Positions 1,914 to 10,110 of a stretch of 64,000 nucleotides of DNA are shown here, piece by piece. The stretch comes from an uncultured Fretibacterium sp. (GTDB taxonomy: Bacteria; Synergistota; Synergistia; Synergistales; Aminobacteriaceae). The position numbers and the translations under genes were made by a program. The notes beneath the pieces are model-generated. The model did no database searches, had not been told where the DNA came from, and worked only from the letters and a program-made list of their open reading frames with translations. Within the stretch, counting starts at the first letter, position 1. Each line of letters starts with the position of its first letter. Location: contig CAMHMH010000001.1 of the NCBI GenBank assembly GCA_946186205.1, forward strand, positions 496,001 through 560,000, read 5' to 3'.

Positions 1914-3224
1914 ATGAAGATCATACACGGCGGAACGGTCTCAAAACTTCTGGCAGGAGTCCCAATCCCGAAAATGTTCCGCGCAAAACAAACTTTCCCC
2001 CGCGAGTCTATTAACCCTTCAGACATTCCCGCAAAAATTTTTGACGAGTTATCACGCGAGCCGTTCATCAGCAAGATAAAGCCCGGAATGAACATCGCAA
2101 TCACAGCAGGCAGCCGGGGAGTCGCAAACGTCGCAATCATCACAAAAGCAATCGCCGATTTCGTGAAGTCCCGCAACGCAGTCCCGTTTATCGTTCCCGC
2201 AATGGGCAGCCACGGAGGCGCAACCGCCCAAGGACAGCTTGAAGTCCTCGAAGGCTACGGAATAACGCCGGCTTCAATGGGCTGTGAGATCCGCTCAAGC
2301 ATGGACGTTGTTCACCTGGGACTCTCTGACACTGGGCAGAATGTTTATATCGATAAGAACGCTTACGAGTCAGACGGGGTTATAGTGTCGTGCAGATTGA
2401 AGCCTCATAACGCATTCAGGGGGAAATATGAGTCAGGCCCGTGCAAAATGCTCGCTGTAGGACTCGGAAAGCAGAAGGGAGCTGAGCAGGTTCACAGCGC
2501 GGGAATGAATCACATTGCCGAAAATATCCCATCAATCGCAAGAGTCATCATCGACAAAGCACCAATACTTTTTGCCCTTCCATGTATCGAGAATGCTTAC
2601 GATGAAACTTGCAGGCTTGAAGCAATAGACGCACCCGACATTATGACACGTGAGCCGGAACTCTTGAAGCTCGCTTTCTCACTCATGCCGAAAATTATTG
2701 CGGGTGAGTGCGACGTTCTTATAGTTGACGAGACCGGGAAGAATTACAGCGGCACGGGAGTCGATCCTAACATCACTGGAACATTCTCGACTGAATACGC
2801 GACTGGAGGAGTCAAAGTTCAGCGGACATGCTTCTTGCGGCTGAGCGAAGAGAGTCACGGAAATGCTTTAGGAGTCGGACTAGCCAGCGTGATAACAAAA
2901 AGATTCTACGAGGCAATAGACCCTGAAATGATGTACCCGAATTGCATAACGTCAACAGTGCTTGCGAGCGCGCGTATACCCTGCGTTGTTTCGACGGACA
3001 AAGAAGCGGTTCAGATGTGTATACGCACATGCACGGGCATCGACAAAGAGAATGTCCGAGTCATCCGAATCCCTAACAGCCTTCACATCGGGCATATCAT
3101 GATGAGCGAGGCATATTACCGTGATGTCATGGCTGGAAAATTTGAGGGACTCAGCGCGGAGAGTCAGCCGGAAGAATTATTGTTTGATGACAATGGGAGA
3201 CTCTTAACGCCTATATTACGGTAA
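1914..3224 (+). CDS. LarA-like (DUF2088) lactate racemase-domain protein
   Basis: This 436-residue protein carries the N-terminal signature PAMGSHGGATAQGQ at about residue 97 and a later KPHNAF...ESGPCKM block that resemble the His and Lys nickel-pincer positions of LarA. The length is close to LarA (about 424 residues). The substrate is unknown: the family contains racemases and epimerases of 2-hydroxy acids besides lactate racemase. A strong AAAGGAGG lies at 1897-1903, inside the end of the TIR gene, 10 bases before the ATG. The neighbour downstream is galactarate dehydratase, so a role in interconverting a sugar acid is attractive but inferred. No larBCE cofactor genes are seen in the window. 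Confidence 0.8.
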   Translation: MKIIHGGTVSKLLAGVPIPKMFRAKQTFPRESINPSDIPAKIFDELSREPFISKIKPGMNIAITAGSRGVANVAIITKAIADFVKSRNAVPFIVPAMGSHGGATAQGQLEVLEGYGITPASMGCEIRSSMDVVHLGLSDTGQNVYIDKNAYESDGVIVSCRLKPHNAFRGKYESGPCKMLAVGLGKQKGAEQVHSAGMNHIAENIPSIARVIIDKAPILFALPCIENAYDETCRLEAIDAPDIMTREPELLKLAFSLMPKIIAGECDVLIVDETGKNYSGTGVDPNITGTFSTEYATGGVKVQRTCFLRLSEESHGNALGVGLASVITKRFYEAIDPEMMYPNCITSTVLASARIPCVVSTDKEAVQMCIRTCTGIDKENVRVIRIPNSLHIGHIMMSEAYYRDVMAGKFEGLSAESQPEELLFDDNGRLLTPILR

Positions 3225-3280
3225 AATATTCGCATTCCACAAAAACAATCAGCAAAAAATTTCAGAGGAGGGGAAAAACT

Positions 3281-4792
3281 TTGCGCGATTACGTGAGATT
3301 AACAGACCGCGACAATGTAGCAGTAGTTACCCGCGACATGTCAAAAGGCACTGAGATAATGCCCGGGCTTGTGCTTCTTGACGACATACCGCAGGCGCAT
3401 AAATTCGCATTGTCCGACATTCCCAAAGACGGCGAAATCATACGCTACGGAGTCGTTCTGGGCTATGCGCTTGACCCGATAAAGCGCGGGGCATGGATCA
3501 ACGAGCATATGTTACGGCTTCCCGTCTCGCCTTCCGTCGACAATATGACTTGGGGGAAAAATATTGTTACAGATCTTCCAGAAGCACCGCGAAAAACTTT
3601 CATGGGCTATAAGAATCCCGACGGCTTTTACGCAGGCACCCGGAACATTCTCGGCATTCAGACAACTGTTCAGTGCGTTCAGGGAGTTCTTGACGTTGCT
3701 GTGAACAGAATCAAGAATGAGCTGTTGCCCAAGTACCCGAATGTTGATGATGTCGTTGCTGTGAATCATGCTTACGGCTGCGGGGTTGCAATCAATGCAC
3801 CGTTCGCGAAATTCCCGATTAGGGCGTTGCGGAACATTGCGAGGCATCCTAATTTCGGCGGTCAGTTAATGGTTGTGTCATTGGGCTGTGAGAAGCTGAC
3901 TGTTGATATGCTTGTCGACGCTGATAACAACACGCCCGAAAATGTGATAGTGCTTCAAGACTGCAAGGGCTACAACGCAATGATTACGGCGATAATGAGC
4001 ATGGCCGAGAAAAAGTTACAGGCACTCAACGAGAGACGGCGCGAGGAATTGCCGCTAAGTGATTTGCTTGTTGGCATGCAGTGCGGGGGAAGCGACGCTT
4101 TTTCGGGAGTCAGTGCTAATCCTTCGGCGGGCTATGCGGCTGACATGCTCGTTCAGGCAGGAGCTACCGTGATGTTCAGCGAGGTAACAGAAGTAAGAGA
4201 CGGCGTTCACTTCATCGCAGAAAGGTGCGTAAGTGAGGAAGTCAAGAACAAACTTGCTGACGAAATGAGATGGTACGACTCATATCTTGACGCGGGGAAT
4301 GTCGACAGAAGCGCGAACCCTACACCCGGCAACAAGAAGGGAGGACTAAGCAACATCGTCGAGAAAGCAATGGGATCAATCGCGAAATCAGGAACGAGTC
4401 CGATTGTCGAGGTCTTATCACCCGCCGAGCGTCCCACAAAGCACGGAATGATTTACGCGGCGACTCCTGCAAGCGATATGGTGTGCGGACCCTGCCAGCT
4501 TGCGAGCGGAATCGGATTGCAGGTTTTCATGACGGGACGAGGGACTCCCTACGGTCTTGCGGCTGCTCCTGTGATAAAAGTCTGCTCACGCAACGAGATG
4601 AAAGATCAATGGCCTGACGTTATCGACATAAGCGCGGGTGCTGTTGTTACTGGCGAGAAAACAATCGCTGAAGTCGGCACGGAGCTGTTCAACTTTATAC
4701 TTGATGTTGCGAGCGGAACAAAGAAACCCTACACAGAACAGTACGGGCTTCATAACTTCCTGTGCATCTTCAACCCTGCCCCTATAACGTAG
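3281..4792 (+). CDS. garD: Galactarate dehydratase (UxaA/GarD family)
   Basis: The protein removes water from D-galactarate (mucate) to give 5-keto-4-deoxy-D-glucarate. It has 503 residues: an N-terminal SAF-like domain (residues 1-75) and a large dehydratase domain. Long stretches match E. coli GarD as I remember it, including YGCGVAINAP, VGMQCGGSDAFSGV, ANPTPGNKKGGL and IYAATPASDMVCG, and fit GarD better than altronate dehydratase UxaA. The start is TTG at 3281 after GAGGAGGGG at 3265-3273; no ATG sits in a better place. The enzyme that would cleave the product (GarL or similar) is not next to it; a DapA-superfamily lyase lies 12 kb away. A weak hairpin follows at 4806-4828. Confidence 0.9.
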   Translation: MRDYVRLTDRDNVAVVTRDMSKGTEIMPGLVLLDDIPQAHKFALSDIPKDGEIIRYGVVLGYALDPIKRGAWINEHMLRLPVSPSVDNMTWGKNIVTDLPEAPRKTFMGYKNPDGFYAGTRNILGIQTTVQCVQGVLDVAVNRIKNELLPKYPNVDDVVAVNHAYGCGVAINAPFAKFPIRALRNIARHPNFGGQLMVVSLGCEKLTVDMLVDADNNTPENVIVLQDCKGYNAMITAIMSMAEKKLQALNERRREELPLSDLLVGMQCGGSDAFSGVSANPSAGYAADMLVQAGATVMFSEVTEVRDGVHFIAERCVSEEVKNKLADEMRWYDSYLDAGNVDRSANPTPGNKKGGLSNIVEKAMGSIAKSGTSPIVEVLSPAERPTKHGMIYAATPASDMVCGPCQLASGIGLQVFMTGRGTPYGLAAAPVIKVCSRNEMKDQWPDVIDISAGAVVTGEKTIAEVGTELFNFILDVASGTKKPYTEQYGLHNFLCIFNPAPIT

Positions 4793-4803
4793 ACAATAAC
4801 ATT

Positions 4804-4845
4804 TGCCCTCTTGCTGAGAATGTGAGGGGGCTATATTCTCTTCAG
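4804..4845 (+). terminator. Possible terminator between convergent garD and NTP_transf_5 genes
   Basis: CCCTC and GAGGG pair across a 13-base loop (about 4809-4831) directly after the garD stop and in front of a T/C-rich run (TATATTCTCTT). The stem is short and the T-run imperfect, so efficiency is uncertain. Confidence 0.45.
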
Positions 4846-5919
4846 AAGTTCCGACTCACTCTCGAAAACTTTGCCGCGAATATTAACAAGGGCTTTTATC
4901 ATTCTGTGAAGCGCGAGAAAAGGATAAAGCACTTTGTATTTTCCGAGTGAAGGATAAATATCTCTCATTGCTTCTTGCGGAATGAAAATTCTTGCGAGGA
5001 TGTATTTTATTTTTCCCGTTATGCCTCCGCCGTATTTGGCCGTGTTGTTTGCGACTCTGTTCTGAACGTTCCCGAAAGCCCCGGAGCCGACAATATAGCA
5101 AAGCATATCGCGGTTGTATGACTCTTTCACGCCTCCGAAAAGATTCATCGCAAGAGTCCGAATGTCTTTCTCAAAGTCCGAAATTCCGAGAGCGTTCACT
5201 TCACGCATAACGTAATCAATATCCATATCAGCCCAGAATTTTTTGATGAACACATACTCATCTGTGAGTGAGCGAAGCCCCGTCCCGCCCCGCGAGTAGT
5301 GCCGGTATCCGTGAGCTGTCATATACACGTAGAAATCTTCAGGCCGGAAATGATACCCGTAATTGTTCCCGCTGTCCTTTATCAGCCTGCCTTTAACGCC
5401 GGAATAATACGCGCTGAATCTCTCCTCGTGAAGCAATCCCCTGTGAAGCTCGAACGTGAACAGAGAATCCCTGCTGTAAATGTCGTGCCTTCCGAGCGCA
5501 AACGATTCGCACACAAAGCCGAGTCCCTCCATGATGCTACGAACGTCAGCAGCCTTTGAAGCGTCGATCAGAATATCGCGGTCAGTCATTTCCCTCATCC
5601 CTAAGCGCGGGTAACAGTCCTTAAGCACTGCGCCTTTCAGAGGCATGTACCATACCCCAGAGTCCTCAAAGCAACGCAGAATTTTCACGCTCAGAGAGTC
5701 ATAATACATTGTCATTCTTACTGAGGAAGCAATCTTTGACTTCACAATCTCGTTGCTGACTCCTGCGTTTTCAAGCGACATTGAGACGAGCGCGCTTATC
5801 ATGTGTCTTGACGCGAGGGAGATTACGCCGCTGATGTCATCAGGGATTATTGCCGGGTCTGGTGCTGTGTCATTTACGGCGCATGAGGCAAGATATATCA
5901 CTGTGTCAGCTGTATTCAT
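4831..5919 (-). CDS. Nucleotidyltransferase-fold protein (NTP_transf_5 family)
   Basis: This 362-residue protein has the core of the NTP_transf_5 family: LKGAVL at about residue 98 followed by MTDRDILID, where the D-x-D pair would bind metal in a polymerase-beta-like nucleotidyltransferase. The activity of the family is not established. The ATG at 5919 overlaps the stop of the PqqD-like gene by four bases (ATGA), and that gene overlaps the polyprenyl synthase gene in the same way, so the three proteins are translationally coupled. NTP_transf_5 and PqqD-like proteins are often neighbours in peptide-modification loci. Here no precursor peptide was found, so the substrate is open. Confidence 0.75.
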   Translation of the reverse strand: MNTADTVIYLASCAVNDTAPDPAIIPDDISGVISLASRHMISALVSMSLENAGVSNEIVKSKIASSVRMTMYYDSLSVKILRCFEDSGVWYMPLKGAVLKDCYPRLGMREMTDRDILIDASKAADVRSIMEGLGFVCESFALGRHDIYSRDSLFTFELHRGLLHEERFSAYYSGVKGRLIKDSGNNYGYHFRPEDFYVYMTAHGYRHYSRGGTGLRSLTDEYVFIKKFWADMDIDYVMREVNALGISDFEKDIRTLAMNLFGGVKESYNRDMLCYIVGSGAFGNVQNRVANNTAKYGGGITGKIKYILARIFIPQEAMRDIYPSLGKYKVLYPFLALHRMIKALVNIRGKVFESESELLKRI

Positions 5920-6176
5920 TCGTCAACCGCGCCTATTCCCCTCAGAATTTTGACAGCCCGTTTCACGTCAGCTTTCACGGTCTCATAAGGAGCGTCATAT
6001 TCTTCAAGCATTGCCCGCGTGATTTCCTCCTCGCTTGTGTCATGTGAGAGAAGAGCGATAATGCCGCCGAGAGTCTCATTGCCTCTGATCATTCCAGTGA
6101 AGCCAGAATCGACAGGCGGCAAAATGTACGTGTCATTGTCCTTTGAGTATGTGAGGAAGTTATCTTTGAGTCTCAT
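5916..6176 (-). CDS. PqqD-like peptide chaperone (RRE fold)
   Basis: An 86-residue protein with the usual size and pattern of PqqD-like proteins: a beta-rich start (DTYILPPVDSGFTGMIRGNETLGGII), an acidic helix rich in Glu, and a closing helix DVKRAVKILRGIGAV. Such proteins are RiPP recognition elements that hold a leader peptide for a modifying enzyme. It is the middle gene of a three-gene overlap cassette, with four-base ATGA overlaps on both sides. No radical SAM maturase or Cys-rich small peptide is adjacent, which is unusual for PqqD. Confidence 0.78.
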   Translation of the reverse strand: MRLKDNFLTYSKDNDTYILPPVDSGFTGMIRGNETLGGIIALLSHDTSEEEITRAMLEEYDAPYETVKADVKRAVKILRGIGAVDE

Positions 6177-7201
6177 CGTGATATGTAGTCGAGCATTCCG
6201 CAGATAATATCTTTATGGTGCTGTGAGATTCTCATTCTGCTTACGGAGTCCCGCGAGTCAGTGATGTACTTCATGAGCAATGACTCCGCTGAAGAATGCG
6301 CCCCGCTTCCGTCAAATAATTTCCGCACTCGTTCATTGTCCTCTTGCGTGCAGTTCCCTTTTCCGTAAACCGAGTCAAATTCTTTCATTTCGTCATCTGA
6401 TGCCTTGTCCCTGAAGTATGACGTTAATACTGTCTTCTTACCTTCCTCAATGTCTGAGAGGTTGCTTTTTCCTGCGTCCTGAACATTTCCGTAAATCCCG
6501 GTTATATCGTCCTTAATCTGGAACGCTATACCCATGAGCCTGCCGAGATCCTCAATGTCAGCGAGAAGACTCTTATTCCCTCCTCCGAGTATCGCGCCTA
6601 ACTGAAGAGGGCCCGTGAACGTGTACCATGATGTTTTCATCTCGTACATTGTGAGGATGTCAGCAAGCGAATACTCATCATCATACGAAAGCTCAATATC
6701 TTTAAGCTCGCCGGCAATGGTGATCTTGAAGACCTTGCTTTGATTCTCGACAGCCCGGAGTTTCAGTGAAGAGTCAAAGTTAGTGAGTGTCAAAGCGTCA
6801 TATGCTGCGACGATTCCGACATCACCGAGGCAAATTGCTTTTGAGATTCCCGCCTGATTATTTCCGAGTGCCGCGTACATTGAGGGCCTGCCCCTGCGCA
6901 AAGTGCTTTTGTCGATAATGTCATCATGCATTAGGATTCCGTTCTGGAAAAATTCATAGGACAGTGAAGCGGTTATTATGTCATTGTCAGTCTCACGGCC
7001 TGCGAGATTATAGCCAAGAATAACGAGGAATGCGCGCAGCCTTTTTCCGCCGTTCATGTGCCCGTTGAAAGCGTCAATATATTTCTTCATGAAGCTGTGA
7101 TTTATGTCATTGAAGATATTGCCGGGAGTCTCCCCTGAAAGAAGAGCTTCAATTTTTGACCAGTAATCGCTGAACAAGTCCTTGAAATTATCCGTTGACA
7201 T
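6173..7201 (-). CDS. Polyprenyl synthetase family protein
   Basis: A 342-residue trans-prenyltransferase-like protein that should condense isopentenyl diphosphate with an allylic diphosphate. GGKRLRAFL (about residue 52) and the first Asp-rich motif HDDIIDKSTLRRGRPS are intact. The second motif reads QIKDDITGIYGN, so the last Asp of DDxxD is replaced by Gly. This may change activity or chain length. It is first in a coupled cassette with PqqD-like and NTP_transf_5 genes, not in an isoprenoid operon (no dxs, xseB or ispA context), which suggests a special product or a prenyl group donor for a peptide. The SD is weak (AGGT). A TATAAT box on this strand lies at 7240-7245. Confidence 0.82.
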   Translation of the reverse strand: MSTDNFKDLFSDYWSKIEALLSGETPGNIFNDINHSFMKKYIDAFNGHMNGGKRLRAFLVILGYNLAGRETDNDIITASLSYEFFQNGILMHDDIIDKSTLRRGRPSMYAALGNNQAGISKAICLGDVGIVAAYDALTLTNFDSSLKLRAVENQSKVFKITIAGELKDIELSYDDEYSLADILTMYEMKTSWYTFTGPLQLGAILGGGNKSLLADIEDLGRLMGIAFQIKDDITGIYGNVQDAGKSNLSDIEEGKKTVLTSYFRDKASDDEMKEFDSVYGKGNCTQEDNERVRKLFDGSGAHSSAESLLMKYITDSRDSVSRMRISQHHKDIICGMLDYISR

Positions 7202-7295: not shown

Positions 7296-7715
7296 TTACC
7301 TGTGAGACTCTAACCAGTCCTGAAGAATTATTACCGCCGCGACTTTGTCGACATTCTTTTTGCGCTTCCTCCGTGAAGTGTCAGCCTCAATCAGAGTCCT
7401 TTGCGCTATGACCGTCGTGAACCTCTCATCCTGAAACACGAACTCGATTCCGGGGTATTCGGTTCTGAGCTGCTGAATGATTTCTGAGACTCTCGAAGCT
7501 GACTCGCTGTCTTTTCCGTCAGTCCTCAAGGGCAAACCTGCAACGACAATTTTCGGGTCATAAGTCTTCACTGCCTCGTCAAAATTTTTGCGCCACTCAT
7601 CATTTTGAGCGTTCCAGACTCCGAGTCCCTGAGCGATTATTCCGAGAGGGTCAGAAATTGCAGCACCGATTCTCACAGTCCCAATATCAAGCGCAAGAAC
7701 ACGGCCGTTAATCAT
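7296..7715 (-). CDS. ruvX: Putative pre-16S rRNA nuclease / Holliday junction resolvase-like RuvX (YqgF)
   Basis: A 139-residue RNase H-fold protein of usual length. Motifs are LALDIGTVRIGAAISDP at the N-terminus, VVAGLPLRTDG in the middle, FQDERFTT and the C-terminal KVAAVIILQDWL. In E. coli YqgF processes the 5' end of 16S rRNA precursor. The ATG at 7715 overlaps the stop of the protease gene by eight bases. It lies downstream of alaS, a common order (alaS-yqgF), here interrupted by the protease gene. Confidence 0.93.
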   Translation of the reverse strand: MINGRVLALDIGTVRIGAAISDPLGIIAQGLGVWNAQNDEWRKNFDEAVKTYDPKIVVAGLPLRTDGKDSESASRVSEIIQQLRTEYPGIEFVFQDERFTTVIAQRTLIEADTSRRKRKKNVDKVAAVIILQDWLESHR

Positions 7716-10110
7716 TTTTCCTGAAGAACATCAGCAAGAGTGCGAACGCTCCGAAGATCCCCGCGCTGCATCCGCTGTGTGATGAGTTGACTATACGAAC
7801 AGGAGTCGGAGTCTCATCTTCCGATTCAGTTTTGGGAGCCGGGGTTATGTCTTTTGAGTCTGTGTCAGTGCCAGGAGTCTTGTCATCTGATTCCGTTTTT
7901 GGAGTCGGAGTCGGCGGTGTCGGTTGTTCGTCATCTGATTCAGTTTTGGGTTCTGGTTCTGGTTCTGGTTCTGGTATGTCATCATCATCGTCGTCGTCCC
8001 AGTATTTTTTCTCGTCATACTTTGTGTCTTTGTCTCTGCTCTCTGCATAGGTGAAGTGCATTATAGGAAGCTCACCCGTAACATGCCCGGACTTGTAGAA
8101 GACATCATAATATCCTTCAGGAATATCAAGCGACACAAGATCAAGTACTACAGCTCCGTCCGCACTTGCTGTAACGTTAAGAGGCCCGTAAACAGCGTAA
8201 TACATTCCGTCTTTGTCCCTGAAGAACATATCAGGCTCATAGCCCGCCGGGAAAAACGTATTAGGATCAGCCGACTCGACTTCGGGCAGGTCTTCAATCA
8301 CTATAATGTCATAGCTTTCATTGTCATCGCTGATTATTATCGTGTTGTCATCGCTCACGTTTTCATTTTCGAGGCCGTCAATGTAAACGAAATATGCATC
8401 TGCTCCCGTGCCTTCTGAGAATGTATTGCTGTCATTGCTCACAAGTGTTGCTGTGATTCTTCTGCCCTCATAATATGGGCCAGGATTATGAGCTTTGATT
8501 CCTTCTTCCGGCACGGTAACTTCAGGGAAATCACGCACTTCAATTCCGTAAAATGTTTGCGGTTCAGCGTCTTCTGAGATTGGCTCATCGTCAGAAACCA
8601 AATCAACAGTGAAAGCCTTTATACATGCGTTCATAGGGTAGACATATGATATGCCGTCTCTGTCTTTCAGCGTGTAATATGCTCCGTCCCGCCAAACATT
8701 CTGGCCAGAAAAGTAGAAGTATGTTTCACCCTCTCTCACAAGCGCATAGTCAGTTACTTTTTTCAGCGCAGTTTCTACAGATATAGGGGCGTTTTTGTCG
8801 GAGTTTGAAGCGCGGAGAACTATTGAGAAATAATCTCCCTTTGTCATTGTGGCGGGGGGATCAAATTTCAGCGTATGATAGCCCGGAAGGTGATACTTTG
8901 CGCTTGCAGTTGCTATGATGTCCCCGCTTGTTATGTTATTGCCGGGGTGTTCATCTCCGTAACTTATTGCGGAAATCTCGACATTTGCATCCATTCCCGT
9001 TGTGTAGAATCCTGCCTCAATGAGCTGTTCACCGTCTGAGCGGACTCGGAATACATTTGCTGCCTGAGAGTAAGTGCCGGCTTTAGCGATTCCCCATAGT
9101 TGGCAGCTTCCGAGGTCGTCCCAGTAATAAGCGTGCATATTCGGATTAGCTTCTTCAACGGTGTACGCTGTGCCTCCTCTGATTCCCTGCTCGTAGGATA
9201 TCCAGAAATACCCGCCATCGCTCCAATTGCTGCCCCATGAGTTACGGATGAGCCATGCACCGGGCTTGCTGGGTTTGTCGAAGCCGAAATTCTCTGCGGG
9301 GAAATTGTCATCCCATCCCACAGCGAGAACAGCATGATTCGTTGCCTTATTGGGATCATTTCTCCTGTCCCTTGAGTCGTCGCTCTTGCTTGGGTCTGTG
9401 AAGAAGTATGCGTTATGCTCTTTGTTGAGATATTTTTTGTCTTCTGCGTGCCAGTATCTTACGTAGAGTCCGCCCTTATTCATTATGAGCTGCTTAATCT
9501 CGTTCCTGTTTTCCTCTTTGAACATAAGTCTGGAGTATGTATTAGAGAAGTTTTCAGCCTCCGTAAGACGCAAAATCGGAGTGTACTTGCTGAAGGGCAA
9601 TGCGTCATCGCTGAGAAGGTCTGCTGATTCTTTCGAGGCATATTTCTTGTAGGGCAGCTCATCTTCAGAGACAGGCCCCCACGTCAAGCCCTCAGAGATC
9701 CCGCGAGTAAGAACCGCAAGAGGCTCAAAGGGACGGCCTCCCCTCTTGAGTGCCTGAAGCGCTGTAGGATTATCAACTACGTACTTGTCTCTTACTGTCG
9801 TTGTGAATCGCTGATACTTAACGGGATTCTTGAACGCCGCCCATACAAGATGAAGCTCCGATAGGTCTATAGACTCTGCTGAAGTGTTCAGGAAGTTGGG
9901 TATCTCGTCATTGCTCAGCTGCATGAGATAATTTGTCTCAGAAGCTCCAATAGCCGCATGTGCCCAGCATGTTCCGAAAGGACTCTGATTCCTCACGGGA
10001 GGCACGACACCTTGATTGCGGAGGTCAAACGAAACAGGAAGATCATCCGCAAACGCACTCCCGGTTAACATGGCCGGAAGCAAAAACAGTAACAGCAAAA
10101 ATTTTTTCAT
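7708..10110 (-). CDS. Papain-like C1 protease with lectin-like region and Synergist-CTERM anchor
   Basis: An 800-residue exported protease. A signal peptide spans residues 1-21 (MKKFLLLLFLLPAMLTGSAFA). The C1A domain follows at about 23-330: oxyanion Gln42, nucleophile Cys48 in FGTCWAHA, His near 257 in NHAVLAVGWD, and Asn near 289 in IRNSWGSNW. A beta-rich region as in lectin-like C1 peptidases follows at 330-500. A Pro/Glu/Thr/Asp-rich linker with repeated KTESDDE and EPEP units spans about 685-770. The last 25 residues (SSHSGCSAGIFGA, hydrophobic run, RKND) match the Synergist-CTERM sorting signal. The protein is probably displayed on the cell surface to degrade host or dietary protein. 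GGAGGAG lies eight bases before the ATG. Confidence 0.9.
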   Translation of the reverse strand: MKKFLLLLFLLPAMLTGSAFADDLPVSFDLRNQGVVPPVRNQSPFGTCWAHAAIGASETNYLMQLSNDEIPNFLNTSAESIDLSELHLVWAAFKNPVKYQRFTTTVRDKYVVDNPTALQALKRGGRPFEPLAVLTRGISEGLTWGPVSEDELPYKKYASKESADLLSDDALPFSKYTPILRLTEAENFSNTYSRLMFKEENRNEIKQLIMNKGGLYVRYWHAEDKKYLNKEHNAYFFTDPSKSDDSRDRRNDPNKATNHAVLAVGWDDNFPAENFGFDKPSKPGAWLIRNSWGSNWSDGGYFWISYEQGIRGGTAYTVEEANPNMHAYYWDDLGSCQLWGIAKAGTYSQAANVFRVRSDGEQLIEAGFYTTGMDANVEISAISYGDEHPGNNITSGDIIATASAKYHLPGYHTLKFDPPATMTKGDYFSIVLRASNSDKNAPISVETALKKVTDYALVREGETYFYFSGQNVWRDGAYYTLKDRDGISYVYPMNACIKAFTVDLVSDDEPISEDAEPQTFYGIEVRDFPEVTVPEEGIKAHNPGPYYEGRRITATLVSNDSNTFSEGTGADAYFVYIDGLENENVSDDNTIIISDDNESYDIIVIEDLPEVESADPNTFFPAGYEPDMFFRDKDGMYYAVYGPLNVTASADGAVVLDLVSLDIPEGYYDVFYKSGHVTGELPIMHFTYAESRDKDTKYDEKKYWDDDDDDDIPEPEPEPEPKTESDDEQPTPPTPTPKTESDDKTPGTDTDSKDITPAPKTESEDETPTPVRIVNSSHSGCSAGIFGAFALLLMFFRKND
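7789..7990. repeat. In-frame coding repeats in the protease linker (TTCTGG hexamers and KTESDDE units)
   Basis: About four TTCTGG hexamers near 7949-7972 encode EPEPEPEP on the minus strand, and longer units encoding KTESDDE recur three to four times. Unit lengths are multiples of three, so length change would alter the linker but not the frame. Confidence 0.8.

Follow-up and report, generated by a model that had tools for sequence, protein, structure and literature searches.

The window analysed here, a stretch of 64,000 nucleotides, corresponds to positions 496001-560000 of contig C1 in the 2.75-Mb genome of an uncultured Fretibacterium sp. (G000), and carries three genes arranged head to tail on its minus strand. 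The first (7201..6173) encodes a trans-polyprenyl diphosphate synthase of 342 aa (PPS; PF00348, E 5e-49), the second (6176..5916) a PqqD-like RRE protein of 86 aa (PF05402, E 6e-8) and the third (5919..4831) an NTP_transf_5 nucleotidyltransferase-like protein of 362 aa (PF14907, E 7e-39), all three matches being above the cut-offs. The gene calls agree with the original prediction that the genes overlap by ATGA at both joints, in each case over 4 nt. Operons often contain such overlaps; as overlapping starts alone prove no ratio, the accompanying claim that the products are made in equal amounts does not follow. Between ruvX and PPS, on the minus strand, there is a strong intrinsic-terminator-like hairpin with a T-rich tail (7290-7259, fold z -5.05). 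It separates the trio from the genes upstream, so that the three genes probably form their own transcription unit. Beyond the NTP_transf_5 gene, the opposite strand encodes a galactarate dehydratase, with a terminator-like hairpin of its own on the plus strand (4805..4831); no minus-strand terminator was detected past NTP_transf_5, as this hairpin folds no better there than shuffled sequences. In G+C content the trio (0.46-0.48) does not fall outside the values measured for other genes of the window, and composition thus gives no support to a recent foreign island.

Relatives differ in the genes that follow ruvX, as judged from the 14 of 30 ruvX neighbourhoods that were read. In G045, the closest relative as judged by ruvX (86%), the cysteine-protease-ruvX pair is also present but is followed by other genes, and in G021 a small gene module is found between ruvX and the end of a galactarate-dehydratase-like gene.

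The synthase matches PF00348, contains both Asp-rich motifs and retains the catalytic motifs GGKRLR, DDIID, KT and DDITG...GKS. The second Asp motif had been described as degenerate, and it does indeed read DDITG. However, DDxLG is present in all ten of the PPS relatives identified below, and the best solved relatives, a GGPP synthase (3lk5) and a (2E,6E)-FPP synthase (8f8f), carry DDLLG and DDVLG, respectively. DDITG is consequently a family trait, and a degenerate PPS is ruled out. The protein shares its Pfam family and the GGKR, DDxxD, KT and DDxxG motifs with these two synthases, but is distant from them in sequence (phmmer 105 and 102 bits), and it differs from solved DDxxG synthases in that its gene sits with a PqqD gene.

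A search with the PPS protein gave matches in 128 of the 185 genomes of the phylum. Ten genomes, all of other genera, contain relatives with E values from 1e-49 to 1e-60, whereas the next best match reached only 2e-21; the full-length identity between these ten and the window PPS is 28-36%. In the tree the window protein falls outside the ten, on a long branch, and it possesses the C-terminal region common to the uppS-linked relatives. The relatives are encoded directly downstream of uppS in 9/10 cases (seven of eight genera), overlapping it in some, the sole exception being G073, and none of the ten has a PqqD or NTP_transf_5 gene beside PPS. A pattern scan of GTDB genomes, which reaches close relatives only, returned seven loci, none above 32% identity. 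With the Pfam profile, trans-prenyl synthases (PF00348) were detected in 33 of the 81 genomes of the family, and by the assignment from the phylum PPS-protein search these divide into 11 of PPS type (window included), 22 of IspA type and no genome that has both; in G078 a further, partial PPS-type match lies on another contig. Exactly one PF00348 protein, the PPS itself, was found in G000. Taken together, the relationship, the uppS linkage in the relatives and the status as sole such gene in G000 argue for a housekeeping enzyme, the simplest reading being that PPS supplies the primer for undecaprenyl phosphate. The enzyme would condense DMAPP with IPP to an allylic primer, presumably FPP or GGPP, which the UppS encoded elsewhere in G000 would then extend to undecaprenyl diphosphate.

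The single UppS of G000 is encoded on contig C2 and PPS on C1, so that the two are not adjacent. Furthermore, 33 of the 43 genomes of the genus contain UppS and no recognisable PF00348 protein, and so do 24 of the 30 genomes that are at least 90% complete. The genus can thus evidently do without a trans-prenyl synthase, and since 33 of 43 genomes are in this state PPS is perhaps non-essential also in G000. Thirty-nine UppS sequences (five from genus genomes with an IspA type, 25 from genus genomes with neither type and nine PPS-linked; G000 and nine other genomes of the genus were left out) were compared for signs that UppS has adapted where a trans-prenyl synthase is lacking. Twelve columns separate the no-synthase from the PPS-linked group, the IspA-type genomes mostly siding with the former, and only in one column, where V and L are conservatively exchanged, do IspA-type genomes tend to differ from no-synthase genomes; no adaptation was found among the 39 sequences. 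In most of the eight genus loci read, uppS-cdsA is followed by a gene that we take to be dxr-like. Staphylococcus aureus tolerates the joint loss of IspA and HepT, for which a third enzyme has been postulated (PMC12345219), and the same paper describes the initiation of isoprenoid chains in bacteria lacking IspA as an open question. The genus genomes without a trans-prenyl synthase make this question testable.

The original prediction had tied a prenylated-peptide pathway to the conservation of the trio in other genomes. A neighbourhood search located the trio in one of the 43 genus genomes, namely G000, and PPS, PqqD and NTP_transf_5 occur together in no other genome examined. The relatives of PPS adjoin uppS instead, and a prenylated-peptide pathway from the trio is unlikely. 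As had been noted at the outset, no precursor is adjacent: within about 1 kb of the trio on the coding strand there is no precursor-like ORF with a ribosome-binding site. Likewise, no window ORF matches the precursor model built for the genus (see below), and none of the three trio proteins matches a peptide prenyltransferase. A genuine pathway to a prenylated or polyprenyl-phosphate-linked peptide, in which PqqD would deliver the peptide and NTP_transf_5 would join it via a phosphate to the PPS lipid, could draw on the exact translational coupling within what is probably one transcription unit. It could also draw on the lack of a trans-prenyl synthase in most of the genus, as PPS may then serve something else, and on the loss of kinase and peptidase described below, which could mean a changed chemistry. 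Still, trans-prenyl synthases of the PPS family make a free diphosphate, and to our knowledge none of the three families is a known peptide prenyltransferase. Together with the single occurrence of the trio, the absence of PqqD beside any PPS relative and the missing adjacent precursor, this renders such a pathway highly improbable. We give equally little credence to the variant in which the trio represents an offshoot of companion-peptide tailoring that has dropped the kinase and recruited a prenyl diphosphate synthase, the peptide being phosphate-linked to an isoprenoid lipid; if true, it would imply a membrane-anchored ribosomal peptide. In short, the RRE points to peptides and the prenyl synthase does not.

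NTP_transf_5 proteins were found in 15/185 genomes of the phylum and in 11/81 of the family, all of the latter belonging to the genus of the window (11/43). The 13 places in the genus comprise ten complete cassettes (L014-L023), in which a P-loop kinase-like, a PqqD, a signal-peptidase-like and an NTP_transf_5 protein are encoded, one place truncated where its contig stops (L024), one gene fragment and the window itself. The fragment (L025:9870-10049) is located in G000 beside apparently broken genes that we take to be transposase genes. One of the complete cassettes (L019) is also carried by G000, on contig C2, and none of the cassette genomes other than G000 has a PPS of the window type. The kinase label is weak, the best matches to HPr-kinase models (E 0.021-0.066) being under the curated cut-offs, and the match of the peptidase to signal peptidase I (E 3e-11) is likewise under its cut-off. 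Among the four NTP_transf_5 matches of the phylum outside the genus, the neighbourhood read was that of G122, from another family of the order, where genes for a large repeat protein, a kinase, a radical-SAM-like protein, PqqD, an S26-like protein and NTP_transf_5 follow in a row (L177). The radical-SAM-like gene, labelled as such from its sequence, lies between those for the kinase and PqqD (L177:4147-8616). This locus shows that the cassette architecture also occurs outside the genus. In the literature searched, no paper on NTP_transf_5 came up under its Pfam names, and among the papers listed for PqqD together with a nucleotidyltransferase, an HPr kinase, S26, a polyprenyl synthase or Synergistota, none dealt with the cassette system.

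Compared with the genus cassettes and L177, the PqqD and NTP_transf_5 proteins of the window are homologous and similarly encoded adjacent or near to each other. The window copy differs from the complete cassettes in having PPS and lacking kinase and peptidase, no trace of which was detected in the window by tblastn with the ten cassette kinases and ten peptidases. The window PqqD, one of two PF05402 proteins in G000, is 44-45% identical to those of L017 and L022, with L016 equally close (44%), and the NTP_transf_5 protein is 51% identical to its L017 and L022 counterparts. Both proteins group with L017/L022 in trees, the branching order inside this group being unresolved for NTP_transf_5. The predicted model of the latter (mean pLDDT 85.5) shows a borderline likeness to aminoglycoside and lincosamide nucleotidyltransferases (best E 1e-3). 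A sequence search of the PDB with it returned only antibody chains, which were taken as chance. Judged by sequence, then, PqqD and NTP_transf_5 appear to be a reduced copy of the four-protein cassette, and without two of its members the pair can at best act with the cassette on C2.

The loss of kinase and peptidase also fits a different account, namely that PPS is a housekeeping enzyme and the PqqD-NTP_transf_5 pair a remnant in the course of being lost, lacking any independent function. The window PqqD breaks five otherwise invariant positions, as against 0-2 in the nine other rows of an alignment that comprised nine of the ten cassette proteins (L015 was omitted owing to its uncertain start). 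In addition, another NTP_transf_5 copy in G000 is the fragment noted above, and the complete cassette on C2 is available as a second copy. Conversely, both reading frames are open and the coupling is exact. The NTP_transf_5 protein keeps most residues conserved across the ten cassette copies and departs from otherwise invariant columns at three sites, no more than the complete-cassette copies themselves (0-5). A remnant is therefore considered unlikely, albeit with a real chance of being right.

The suggestion that the RRE indicates a ribosomal peptide is borne out by the relatives, in which PqqD/NTP_transf_5 cassettes co-occur with small peptides sharing a leader. In L015, L016, L017 and L022, one to four short ORFs with the pattern MxKxxYIPxExEVIxFxxEDVITxS precede the kinase gene, the leader pattern of the small peptides being YxxPExEVIxF...DVITxS. 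A profile built from nine of these ORFs (four genomes) matched 12/43 genus genomes at E 1e-3 or better. Peptides were present in 10 of the 11 NTP_transf_5 genomes versus 2/32 of the others (p 4e-7), and the association persists without the four source genomes (6/7 versus 2/32, p 6e-5). The two genomes with peptides and no detected cassette, G023 and G029, are 80% and 87% complete. The search for small ORFs with a conserved leader, as originally proposed, thus yielded shared-leader peptides in the relatives and none in the window.

The peptides are encoded either upstream of a cassette or dispersed over the genome. Twenty stretches around dispersed peptides, part of those found, were fetched (L122-L141), and 19 of their 21 peptides start at most 32 nt behind, or overlap, the gene for a large protein, mostly one with a secretion-type start; leader-type peptides behind large proteins were also observed at L017 and L022. 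The large proteins have a C-terminal domain in common with those encoded upstream of cassettes, as detected with a profile from seven cassette loci; none of these is among the 20 stretches, and five come from genomes that also contributed to the stretches. No Pfam name was obtained for this region in the four cassette-linked proteins scanned. Its predicted model (mean pLDDT 88.7) consists mostly of beta strands followed by two helices, with only weak structural matches, of immunoglobulin type. Three leader-type peptides are encoded in G000 (L122, L123 and L124), none of them in the window. The L123 peptide (L123:6224-6373), located next to genes that are presumably glpX-like, is without a large partner protein. 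Its leader, EYKPLEAEVI, is nearer to the L017/L022 type (EYKRLEIEV) than those of the other two, and our guess is that the window PqqD takes this peptide as its substrate. At a comparable place in G060 (L127), two large partner-type proteins and a peptide are encoded.

In a complete cassette, PqqD would probably bind the leader YxxPExEVIxF. By analogy with paeninodin and pseudomycoidin, the kinase may phosphorylate a Ser/Thr residue, to which NTP_transf_5 may add a nucleotide- or sugar-derived group, and the peptidase would remove the leader. Having lost kinase and peptidase, the window pair could function only in trans, together with the complete C2 cassette. In Firmicutes, lasso peptides receive a phosphate from HPr-kinase-like enzymes and a sugar from a nucleotidyltransferase (PMC8498205); a rumen survey is cited alongside for lasso peptide tailoring (PMC7533575). 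The systems behind paeninodin and pseudomycoidin (PMC8498205) share with the present loci a PqqD-like RRE and a nucleotidyltransferase, and with the complete cassettes also an HPr-kinase-like protein. In contrast to the Firmicutes systems, the cassettes have a signal-peptidase-like protein in place of the PF13471 protease and their peptides are mostly encoded away from the enzymes, while the window copy lacks the kinase. None of the 43 genomes of the genus contains the lasso leader protease B2 (PF13471), which rules out a lasso peptide cluster as defined by its protease.

Polyprenyl phosphates are known carriers of glycans, and PqqD could accordingly be a scaffold for a non-peptide task shared with NTP_transf_5, for example on a nucleotide sugar or a polyprenyl-phosphate-linked glycan. 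In line with this, a glycan cluster on the Ruminococcus albus plasmid pRUMAL01 contains an NTP_transf_5-like protein (L176:8965-10074), 39% identical to a cassette member, and no annotated PqqD; the changed positions in the window PqqD would also fit. However, no glycan genes are found directly beside the window trio and PF05402 still recognises the window PqqD, which makes a scaffold role quite improbable.

The reading we favour, with a probability of roughly 0.6, is that two unrelated functions are combined in one unit, the primer supply by PPS and a reduced peptide-tailoring pair. The trio is then probably a local arrangement in which two unrelated, known kinds of gene stand side by side by coincidence. 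Several observations count against this reading. PPS is apart from uppS in G000 and translationally coupled to PqqD, a coupling that an unrelated gene would not need; the PPS relative in G073 has no uppS alongside; and the kinase label is weak, the peptidase label under cut-off and the fold match of NTP_transf_5 borderline. This verdict saves others from chasing a prenylated RiPP. Most of the interest lies in the surroundings of the trio: the cassette of kinase, RRE, peptidase and nucleotidyltransferase, whose peptides are dispersed behind large secreted proteins, and a genus that keeps UppS while its trans-prenyl synthases are mostly gone, are the weightier observations.

Further genes of the window were also inspected. 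The region 7708-10110 encodes a papain-like protease that carries a lectin-like domain and, at its C-terminus, a Cys-containing tail, which presumably resembles a Synergist-type sorting signal, and G045 has the same tail before ruvX. A nickel-pincer-cofactor isomerase (group 22) is encoded at 1914-4792 next to galactarate dehydratase, which suggests a sugar-acid route, and at 43-1908 a TIR domain is fused to many Sel1 repeats.
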